64,000 bases of DNA from Acidobacteriota bacterium (lineage in GTDB: Bacteria; Acidobacteriota; Terriglobia; Terriglobales; Acidobacteriaceae): assembly GCA_003225005.1 (NCBI GenBank), contig QIAN01000138.1:3266-67265 (forward strand), given 5' to 3'. A program made the translations under genes and the position numbers. The notes under the pieces were generated by a model, which worked only from the letters and a program-made list of their open reading frames with translations, had not been told where the DNA came from and made no database searches. This document shows positions 5,595-8,454 of this stretch, one piece after another; the stretch's first letter is position 1; every line of letters begins with the position of its first letter.

Positions 5595-6064
5595 TTGGGA
5601 AGGACAGCGATGAGCTGTAAGGAATTGCGACGAGCCGGAGTATTGGCGCGAGTGAAAAGCGGCGAACTAAAACTGGGAAACGCCGCGGTGATGATGGGGC
5701 TGAGCTATCGCCAGACCAAGCGCTTGGCAAAACGCTATCGAGAAGAGGGAGCCAAAGGGCTGAAGCACGGAAGCGCGGGGCGGGAGTCGAACCGAAAGAA
5801 GCCGGGGAAATTCCGGGAACGAGTGTTGCGGTTAGTGGGCAAGAAGTATTCCGGGGAGGAAGGAGAGCGGTTCGGGCCGACGTTAGCGGCCGAGCACTTG
5901 GCGAGCGACGATCATGTGGAAGTGAATGCGCAGACCCTGCGGCGCTGGATGTTGTCAGAAGGGTTATGGAGTCGGGCGCGGAAGCGGCGCATGCATCGCC
6001 AGCGGCGAGAACGGAAAGAGCATGTGGGGGAACTGGTACAGATGGATGGAAGTTTCCACGACTG
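5595..6064 (+). pseudogene. ISNCY-family transposase, N-terminal part (gene split by IS110)
   Basis: Encodes the N-terminal 156 residues of an ISNCY (IS1202-group) transposase: an N-terminal helix-turn-helix (LKLGNAAVMMGLSYRQTKRLAKRY), a basic linker, and the first catalytic Asp of the DDE/rve domain in QMDGSFHD. Translation would start at TTG 5595 (AGGAGG five bases upstream) or ATG 5610 (GGAAGGA upstream). The frame runs into the IS110 left end at 6065 and stops soon after. Joining 6064 directly to 7611 restores the uninterrupted reading GSFHDWLEERG, which shows that the two halves were one gene. Confidence 0.9.
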
Positions 6065-6099
6065 TCATCTAGGGCCTGCGGCCCGCGAAATTACATGAA

Positions 6100-6305
6100 A
6101 ATTTCTCAGAGCCAAGCCATAATCCACGATGGCTCGGAGCGGCGAGATTGATCCAACAGTGGAGAGGCTGAGACCGAACGACTGTCTGATCCGGAGCGTG
6201 CGTGATAGAGCGAATAAATGGCGCGTTGTCTCTCCCCCCCGGTGGGAGCGGCGATAGCCCGAGACCCTGCTTAATGTAATCTGCGGCACGCTCTCCGCTC
6301 CCGCC
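6100..6305 (+). ncRNA. Putative bridge RNA of the IS110 element
   Basis: IS110-group elements are known to express a non-coding bridge RNA from the left end with a target-binding and a donor-binding loop. Here a lower stem AGCC/GGCT (6110-6113/6166-6169) and an upper stem CTCG/CGAG (6133-6136/6143-6146) enclose an internal loop. Its 5' side carries TCCACGA (6123-6129), identical to the target just left of the core (6055-6061). Its 3' side carries TCCAAC (6152-6157), the complement of the target right of the core (GTTGGA, 7611-7616). A second 11-bp stem (6241-6251/6295-6305, one U-G pair) encloses GACCCTG (6263-6269), matching the element's own right end GACC-CT-G (7604-7610). A right donor guide was not identified. 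RNA ends are approximate. Confidence 0.7.
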
Positions 6306-6317
6306 AGGAGGAAGCCT

Positions 6318-7589
6318 ATGGCGTATAGGATAGCCGGAATTGACGTCCACAAAAAGAAGCTGGCTGTAGTCGTGGCCGACGTCGAAGTCGACGACGCATA
6401 CCAATTTGAGCGACGCTGGTTCGGAAGCAACCCGGAGCAGTTGCAACGGCTGGCGGAGTGGCTCATTGAGCAGCGAGTCGAGGAAGTGGTGATGGAGTCC
6501 ACTGCCCAATACTGGAAACCGCTGTGGAGCGCACTCGAACGGTACTGGAAACCGAGCTGTCAAAATCGGGAAGGTGCCGGGAAAATGTCGGGAACACTCC
6601 ATCTGGCGCAAGCATTGTCCAACCGCGGACGACGCGGGCGCAAGAAAGACTTTCCGGACGCGGAACGTTTGGTGAAGTGGTTGATTTCCCAGGAGCTGAC
6701 TTTGAGCTTTGTGCCCGATACCGAACAGCGACTGTGGAGGACACTCACACGCACAAAGTATCAACGGACGCGGGACAAAGTCCGTCTGCAGAATCAACTG
6801 GAGGCACTGCTGGAAGAAGCGCATATCAAATTATCCAGTCTGGTCTCGGATCTGTTGGGGGTCAGTGCGCGTCGTATGCTGCATGCGCTAGCGGATGGAG
6901 AGACCGATCCGGCGGCTGTGGCCGCCTTGGCCCATCAGTGCTTGCGTGCCACGCCGGCCGAGTTGCGCGACGCGCTGGGCGCCTGCACCGAACTCAACCC
7001 GGTCTACCGTCGGCTCATAAGATTGGCACTGGACGACTTGCAATTGATCGAGCAGCAGATCGGCCAACTGGACCAGGAGATCGCGAGCCTGCTCCGCGAG
7101 CATCAGGATGCGGTCCAACGGCTAGCGGAAGTCCCCGGTTTAGGGGTCGATTCGGCGCAACAGATCATTGCCGAGGTGGGTGCCAAGGCAGCGACCTTCG
7201 CTTCCGCCAAGAATCTGGTCTCGTGGGTAGGAGCATGCCCGGGCGACGAGGAAAGCGCCGGCGTGAACCGCAGCAAACGCTCGCCCAAGGGCAACCGTCA
7301 AATGCGCCGCATTCTCAATCAATCTGCCAATGCTGCCGTCAAACACAAAGGAAGTATCTTCGAGATCGTCTATCGTCGTTTCGTGCCGCGTCTCGGACAC
7401 AACAAAGCCATCGGAGCCATTGCGCATCGCCTCTGTCAGTTGATCTGGATCATTTTGCACAAAGGCGTTCGCTATGAGGAACGCGGCCCCTCAGTATGCG
7501 AAAAGGCCAAGCGAGTCCGCACCTCGCGAATGATCCGGACACTCCGAGCCCTTGGCTACCGAGTCGAACCAGCAGTGATTCCGGCATGA
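6318..7589 (+). CDS. IS110-family transposase (bridge-RNA-guided recombinase)
   Basis: The 423-residue protein has the N-terminal RuvC-like DEDD domain, with catalytic acids visible in GIDVHKKKLAV (D9), VVMESTAQYWKPLW and RGRKKDFPDAERL. A coiled region precedes the C-terminal transposase_20 domain (EVPGLGVDSAQQIIAEVG ... LVSWVGACPG ... SAGVNRSKRSPKGNRQMRR), where the nucleophilic serine of this family resides. The CCAGGAGG ribosome site supports the ATG at 6318. Domain set and length are those of an intact enzyme. Together with the upstream non-coding end it would excise as a circle and reinsert at sequence-matched sites. Confidence 0.95.
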   Translation: MAYRIAGIDVHKKKLAVVVADVEVDDAYQFERRWFGSNPEQLQRLAEWLIEQRVEEVVMESTAQYWKPLWSALERYWKPSCQNREGAGKMSGTLHLAQALSNRGRRGRKKDFPDAERLVKWLISQELTLSFVPDTEQRLWRTLTRTKYQRTRDKVRLQNQLEALLEEAHIKLSSLVSDLLGVSARRMLHALADGETDPAAVAALAHQCLRATPAELRDALGACTELNPVYRRLIRLALDDLQLIEQQIGQLDQEIASLLREHQDAVQRLAEVPGLGVDSAQQIIAEVGAKAATFASAKNLVSWVGACPGDEESAGVNRSKRSPKGNRQMRRILNQSANAAVKHKGSIFEIVYRRFVPRLGHNKAIGAIAHRLCQLIWIILHKGVRYEERGPSVCEKAKRVRTSRMIRTLRALGYRVEPAVIPA

Positions 7590-7607
7590 GGAGGGGATTT
7601 TTCGACC

Positions 7608-8454
7608 CTGGTTGGAGGAACGAGGGCCGCGTGGCTGCTTGATGAACATGGTGGACGACGCCAGCGGAGACACGCTGGCACGCATGGGGAGTGAGGAGAC
7701 GATCTGGGCGGCGGCGGGAGTGTTGCGAGCTTGGGTCCAGAAATACGGCATACCGGTGGCGCTGTATACGGATTGGAAGAATGTGTATGTACGAGAGGCG
7801 AGCACGAAAGAGCAATTCCAGGGGGTGGTGCCGGTGACGCAATTTGGGCAGATGTGCCAGCGCCTGGGGATTCGCATCATCGCAGCCAATTCGCCGCAGG
7901 CGAAAGGGCGAGTGGAGAGAAACCACGGCACGCACCAGGATCGCTTGGTCAAGAAAATGCGGCTGAAGAAAATCCAAACGCATGCGGAGGCGAATAGGTT
8001 TCTGGAGAAGGAATATCTGCCCGAGCACAATCGGCGGTTTAGGCGTACCCCGGCGGAGCCCGAGGACTATCATCGAGCGGCTCCGCGGGCAGTGGAGTTG
8101 GAGGAAGTTTTTCATCTGGAAACCGGGCGAGTCATCGGCAACGACTGGGTGGTGCGGCACGACAACCGATATTTCCAGGTGAAAGCTCAAACCCGTCAGT
8201 ATGCGCCGGCCAAGGGCAAAGTCACGGGGTGCGAATGGGAGGACGGGCGATTACAGATTCGCTATCGCGGTAGGGCGGTGGTTTGGGAGGAGATTCCAGG
8301 CCCTGTTCCAGTTCAGGCAGTAAGACCCAGGGAGGCCACGTCCAAGAAACAAAAGCCACCCACTCCCCAAGCGGATCACCCTTGGCGGCAGGGCTATCGC
8401 GAGATGCGTCCCCTGGTGCAAGCCAGAGACATCGCCAGTGTCGTTGATCAATGA
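7608..8454 (+). pseudogene. ISNCY-family transposase, C-terminal part
   Basis: Continuation of the transposase split by IS110. It supplies the remaining two catalytic acids of the rve/DDE core: D in LYTDWKNVYVRE and E in SPQAKGRVERNHGTHQDRL. A C-terminal beta-rich DNA-binding module (VIGNDWVVRHDNRYFQVKAQ...) follows. A TTG at 7612 could in principle start translation, but the fragment lacks the DNA-binding domain and first Asp, so it is inactive alone. Apart from the IS110 insertion I see no frame damage, which suggests the inner insertion is fairly recent. Confidence 0.9.

Follow-up and report, generated by a model that had tools for sequence, protein, structure and literature searches.

In the accessible text of the report on IS1111 elements (PMC11187229), the guide RNA usually lies downstream of the gene, the complement of the target's top strand comes first in it, and the proteins have 330-350 amino acids (aa); ISEc21, an IS110 element, has an IS621-like order there, the reverse of IS1111. 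For IS621 itself, the handshake bases are described for the top strand in the consulted parts of PMC11208158. Here, we analysed an IS110-family element in a stretch of 64,000 nucleotides from an Acidobacteriota bacterium (contig QIAN01000138.1, positions 3,266 to 67,265 of the forward strand; hereafter the window, whose numbering is used throughout). The sequence evidence makes it very probable that this element carries a bridge RNA with guides reversed relative to IS621. In its target loop the right guide would occupy the 5′ side and the left guide the 3′ side, the opposite of IS621, and the donor loop would also be reversed, its 3′ strand (6263-6268) carrying the guide that matches the right end of the element.

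The element resembles IS621, as far as the inspected text of PMC11208160 and PMC11208158 goes, in its upstream RNA, two guide loops, CT core, presence of the core in both guides, and target core at the left end. It differs in that its left guide lies on the 3′ side of the target loop and has four bases plus the core, whereas that of IS621 has seven bases plus the core, and in that its junction-reading bases lie on the left-guide strand, while the handshake bases are described on the right-guide strand in the IS621 passages. When the same convention is applied to IS621 (L229), the left guide falls at 775, the right guide at 802 and the gene at 903; in the window element the right guide falls at 6152, the left guide at 6178 and the gene at 6318. 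According to the available portions of PMC11187229, the ISEc21 seekRNA likewise belongs to an IS110-type element, lies upstream of the gene and matches both target strands, but its top-strand match is 3′ of the bottom-strand match, which in the window element is reversed. By the same portions, the IS1111 seekRNAs (ISEc11, ISPa11, ISKpn4) also place the top-strand complement ahead of the bottom-strand match, but they are downstream RNAs of elements with recombinases of 330-350 aa and long subterminal inverted repeats of 7-17 bp. Thus the window element, with its right guide at 6152-6159 and its left guide at 6178-6183, has the IS1111-group order of top-strand guide before bottom-strand guide, and not the bottom-strand-first order of ISEc21 and IS621. 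The titles, abstracts and inspected passages of the literature covered, which left aside preprints, most subscription papers and figures, do not state the reversed order for any IS110-type element whose RNA lies upstream.

Covariation of target guides with insertion sites

Relatives of the element gave 52 distinct left ends, from which eight poor ones were excluded, as was L059, which duplicates L080 and contains a stretch of N. The 43 RNAs of this first set were aligned, 39 of them with a left flank and 23 or 24 with a right flank. Some ends were chosen by hand: those on the left of L004, L073 and L036 were placed manually, L065 and L069 were given none, the left end of L067, which is counted among the 39, was shifted one base with its guide already known, and for the right end of L062 and L036 the first motif match was substituted. 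All RNA columns were scanned against all flank and end positions for identity and complementarity, with permutation, and the guide position was left unspecified beforehand. With left-end self-matches set aside, the top signals were the left-guide columns, 6182, 6186, 6155 and 6156. Columns 6181, 6180, 6179 and 6178 equalled left flank positions -1 to -4 in 35, 37, 34 and 31 of the 39 elements, and column 6182 equalled the first core base in 36. In total, 137 of 156 left-guide bases matched (permutation mean 44, maximum 69 of 20,000), with all four bases matching in 28 elements, three in 7, and two or fewer in 4.

A covariance model was built on 37 RNAs and searched against overlapping draws of 399 genomes of the class, 398 of the family and 396 of the phylum, giving matches in 30, 30 and 2 genomes, respectively. 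Of 100 model matches, 98 entered a prospective set, the two left out being L092, already in the first set, and L197, which duplicates L206; 83 were unique and 62 new. A fixed rule gave a left end for 36 and none for 26, and removal of seven duplicates from the 36 left 29 to be scored. The left guide matched at all four bases in 19 of these (0.8 expected), at three in 3, at two in 5 and at none in 2, or 95 of 116 bases against a permutation mean of 34.8 and a maximum of 58. A pooled scan of 88 elements, 60 with left ends and 34 with right ends, recovered the left- and right-guide positions of the first scan.

On the other strand, columns 6155 and 6156 were complementary to right flank +3 and +2 in 21 of 23 and 20 of 24 elements in the first scan, and the right guide was complementary to +2 to +5 in 27, 28, 24 and 24 of 34 in the pooled scan. 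Altogether 77 of 115 right-guide bases were complementary (permutation mean 34.7, maximum 55). The target guides therefore covary with the insertion site, as is required of a bridge RNA. An earlier note on this DNA, made from the sequence of the window, had proposed such an RNA in the 5′ non-coding end with TCCAAC (6152-6157) as right target guide, and both proposals agree with the covariation across relatives. The guide order, read from these positions, is right guide first with the left guide 3′ of it, the reverse of IS621 and ISEc21. Across 94 elements there were 64 different four-base left guides; 22 of the 94 guides belong to a second clade whose core reads GA or, shifted by one base, AG. 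Six elements had unequal left and right cores; the left end carried the core of the left guide in five and the right end that of the donor guide in five, a pattern expected from strand cleavage on the 3′ side of the core, as happens in IS621.

The match continues beyond the core. The third base after it in the RNA (column 6186) equalled the third base of the element in 39 of 39 elements of the first scan (24.1 expected) and in 56 of 60 of the pooled scan (30.7 expected). In an end-blind test of 100, later 94, elements, the own 9-base guide of each element was sought upstream, so that no end call was needed; at least eight of nine bases matched in 75 of 94 (permutation mean 3.5, maximum 13), 52 of them perfectly, while the guides of other elements reached at least eight of nine in 2.9% and were perfect in 0.4%. 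The rare trinucleotides GGA, GGC, CTC and GCC change on both sides, the ends there having been located via the guide itself. The left guide is thus prolonged by three bases equal to the start of the element, so that it can pair with the entire left junction. It is plausible that this extension pairs with the recombined left junction, as a bottom-strand counterpart of the top-strand handshake bases of IS621. It would probably serve either to hold the recombined bottom strand while strands are exchanged or to let an inserted element be recognised when it is excised. In IS621, TG comes after the left guide ATCGGGCCT and equals the two bases with which that element begins after its core.

RNA fold, donor loop and empty target site

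Alignments A1 and A2 omit L004, L035, L037, L038, L109 and L117. Standard pairs filled 95.5% of the cells of the structure given in Table 1, against 37-49% when partners were slid, and 26 cells showed two-sided change against 7.2 in shuffles. These changes were concentrated in both donor-loop stems, with one such cell in the inner target hairpin. The outer stem and inner hairpin of the target loop were paired in 98.5% and 100% of cells, and their variation was mostly one-sided. The single-sequence fold was as stable as shuffles (z -0.79) and is uninformative. The core letters of the left and right guides can pair mutually, which is expected because each spells the core. The segment would be transcribed, bound by the recombinase and paired with target and element DNA in recombination.

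In the donor loop, columns 6263, 6265, 6266 and 6267 equalled right-end positions -4, -2, -1 and the first core base in 34 of 34, 33 of 34, 31 of 33 and 33 of 33 elements of the pooled scan, a match that may be partly owed to shared descent, since both partners lie inside the element. GACCCTG at 6263-6269 had been read as the left donor guide in the earlier note, and its first six letters do match the right end in relatives. For the candidate right donor guide, element position +4 agreed with column 6203 in 21 of 48 elements (13.4 expected), and +3 was without signal in the pooled scan.

The insertion site could be reconstructed directly. L245, a relative with 94% identity over 411 bp, has the split gene intact and carries TTTCCACGACTGGTTGGAGG, so that the empty site TTTCCACGA-CT-GGTTGGAGG, deduced previously from the interrupted gene, stands in the same letters in an uninterrupted one. 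Zero target bases were therefore lost, CT stands at either end as had been proposed, and the defined target with a shared core is that of the IS110 family. A GC-rich palindrome, GGGCC-TGC-GGCCC, lies at 6071-6087 and occurs in most listed left ends of relatives.

Table 1. Features of the element and its surroundings (window positions)
Feature	Position	Strand	Remarks
Interrupted host gene, 5′ part, transposase-like, with helix-turn-helix domains	5610-6061	+	Pfam HTH_29 and HTH_28 above cut-off
Left CT core	6062-6063	+	
IS110-family element between two CT cores	6064-7607	+	ends homologous in relatives; empty site
Conserved guide RNA core (predicted)	6136-6296	+	closing helix 6136-6139/6293-6296; alignment of 37 relatives
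Target loop	6143-6193	+	outer stem 6143-6150/6187-6193; inner hairpin 6160-6176
Right target guide TCCAAC-AG	6152-6159	+	5′ side of target loop; complement of right target plus core
Left target guide ACGA-CT	6178-6183	+	3′ side of target loop; same letters as left target plus core
GTC after left guide	6184-6186	+	equals first three bases of element
Donor loop	6195-6292	+	outer stem 6195-6201/6286-6292; inner stem 6221-6259
Candidate right donor guide TGATAG	6203-6208	+	could pair with CT-GTCA, one wobble
Left donor guide GACC-CT	6263-6268	+	3′ side of donor loop; identical to element right end and core
DEDD recombinase, 423 aa	6318-7589	+	Pfam PF01548, PF02371; NCBIfam NF033542
Right end TTTTTCGACC, then right CT core (7608-7609)	7598-7609	+	
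Right target GGTTGGA and 3′ part of interrupted host gene	7610-8454	+	

Several relatives had unusual targets or structures. The left guide GACC-CT-GTC is shared by L037, L038, L061, L110 and L163 and corresponds to the common right end, core and left end in direct succession; it differs from the left flank in L037, L061 and L110. L163, whose left guide reads GACC-CT, has as its left flank the last bases and core of another copy (TTTTTCGACC-CT), and a second left end begins the right flanks of L084 and L069. Some elements (L163, L084, L069) thus seem to insert at the ends of elements like themselves. L151 and L200, both in genome G183, have identical guides and the same target sequence, and their unusual start CTC is matched in the RNA. 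In L037 and L038, unrelated sequence follows the guide RNA and no recombinase start was seen at the expected place; these may be fragments or RNA-only relics.

Recombinase type and alternative readings

The recombinase scored above cut-off with PF01548 (DEDD, RuvC-type, N-terminal) and PF02371 (IS116/IS110/IS902, C-terminal) and reached 191 bits against a cut-off of 140 with NF033542, the NCBIfam model of IS110 RNA-guided transposases. Residues D9, E60, D111 and D114 occupy the DEDD columns, invariant across 11 proteins (alignment A3), and the protein thus has the domains and catalytic columns of the IS110 family. Non-coding DNA amounts to 254 bases before the gene and 18 after it, the upstream arrangement of the IS110 group as opposed to IS1111. 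Close relatives of the protein were found in the genome collection at 71 loci, 70 with acidobacterial names and one, L076, labelled Betaproteobacteria. The viral contigs held no relative of the window protein and one relative of a Streptomyces IS110 protein, which was left unused. The window protein is 35% identical to this Streptomyces protein (415 aa) and 22% identical to the proteins of IS1383 and IS5708 (~340 aa). The latter two we take to be IS1111-type from their length.

Given that the guide order matches that reported for IS1111, and that a few IS1111 elements are named with an upstream non-coding region in the consulted text of PMC11187229, the element might be an IS1111-type one with a relocated RNA, in which case the order would be the ordinary one. 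We consider this very unlikely in view of the length and identities of the protein and because long-protein IS110 elements share the place of the left guide. This was seen in 15 long-type plasmid elements (three found first and 12 hand-picked from 30 listed of 71 records), 14 actinobacterial and one from Alicyclobacillus, several of them closely related to each other. In 7 of the 15 (1.3 expected), an exact direct repeat of 8-10 bases linked about -240 to -255 with -133 to -147 before the gene. Two more had a 7-base repeat at that place and 6 had none in the tested range; ISArsp3, among these six, has a 10-base repeat at spacing 148, outside that range. The long-protein plasmid elements (Streptomyces, Rhodococcus, Arthrobacter ISArsp3, Alicyclobacillus) thus resemble the window element in a left-junction repeat ~100 bases inside the element in those 7 of 15, and the evidence for right guides in them is at most suggestive.

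In another reading, the 9-base segment did not choose the site as a guide but arose only once the element had inserted, by copying of the left junction into it. The match is unbroken across host and element bases, and between the window and L026, which differ at only 6 of 213 four-fold sites, 8 of the 15 bases from 6166 to 6180 around the left guide differ (reached in 0 of 20,000 simulations). Such copying is nevertheless highly improbable, since the right guide, a complement, also covaries with targets; hairpin bases foreign to the junction sequence fall within the block changed in the window, which is closest to another element, L049; and L029 and L050 have different left-guide cores (CT, GT), their right guides differing in the core letters too. 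That the repeated segments are DNA sites for the recombinase rather than RNA guides would agree with the lack of an Rfam match, and is scarcely credible given the compensatory changes in helices around the guides and the RNA guidance published for IS621 and ISEc21 (PMC11208160, PMC11187229, in the parts consulted).

The earlier note had placed the left guide, in IS621 order, at TCCACGA, which together with TCCAAC was drawn as the two sides of one internal loop. The letters TCCACGA do stand at 6123-6129 and match the left flank of the element over seven bases. Across the 39 relatives, 73 of 273 bases matched their flanks against 75 expected by chance, and the motif was kept at unrelated targets in seven relatives, five with it exact and two with one change, an outcome that the note itself had named as a refutation. 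Column 6128 agreed with left flank -4 in 18 of 39 (9.9 expected), with weak scattered signals at 6123-6129 that form no run. The family alignment shows length variation upstream of 6135, and positions 6123-6128 fall within a small hairpin loop in the single-sequence fold. We therefore rejected TCCACGA as a guide, which leaves the loop drawn with it unsupported, and the IS621 order at this place is almost certainly wrong.

Several observations weigh against a bridge RNA with reversed guides. The right guide fits at all four positions from +2 to +5 in only 12 of 24 elements and at two or fewer in 8 of 24, and in the window element it pairs only if one target base beside the core is skipped, a skip noticed before and real. 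The 8/9 junction match is missed by 19 of 94 elements. Pairs with two-sided change numbered 7 against 5.0, a count reached by 71 of 500 shuffles, and the outer stem of the target loop has none. A right donor guide was sought across all RNA columns without a convincing signal, and the Rfam search returned no matching family.

Possible retargeting and meaning for the family

Over the block 6151-6186 the window element has 5 differences to L049 and 9 to L026, while over 1265 positions of the gene it has 231 to L049 and 18 to L026. The simplest reading of this pattern would be an exchange of target loops between elements. Four pairs with both genes were listed below 5% four-fold divergence and the left guide differs only in that of the window and L026, so we do not claim a faster-than-neutral rate.

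We tentatively suggest, as a proposal that could well prove wrong, that the long-recombinase IS110 branch of Acidobacteriota and actinobacterial plasmids forms a bridge-RNA class of its own. Both loops would be circularly permuted relative to IS621; the left guide would span the core and reach into the element, and transfer of the second, bottom strand would then rely on RNA pairing, as is described for the top strand in IS621; and retargeting would proceed by block exchange of target loops.

Taken together, an IS110-type protein, an upstream RNA and the IS1111 order in one element indicate no fixed link among guide order, the place of the RNA and protein type, while the accessible text of PMC11187229 ties order to family, with the top-strand complement first in IS1111 and the reverse in IS110 (ISEc21). 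A reading rule is gained for a branch whose guides are easily misassigned, as happened in the earlier note. Moreover, the natural guide-target pairs, with their many distinct left guides, are a resource for programmable recombinases, and the junction-reading bases turn the idea of a second-strand exchange into a testable one.
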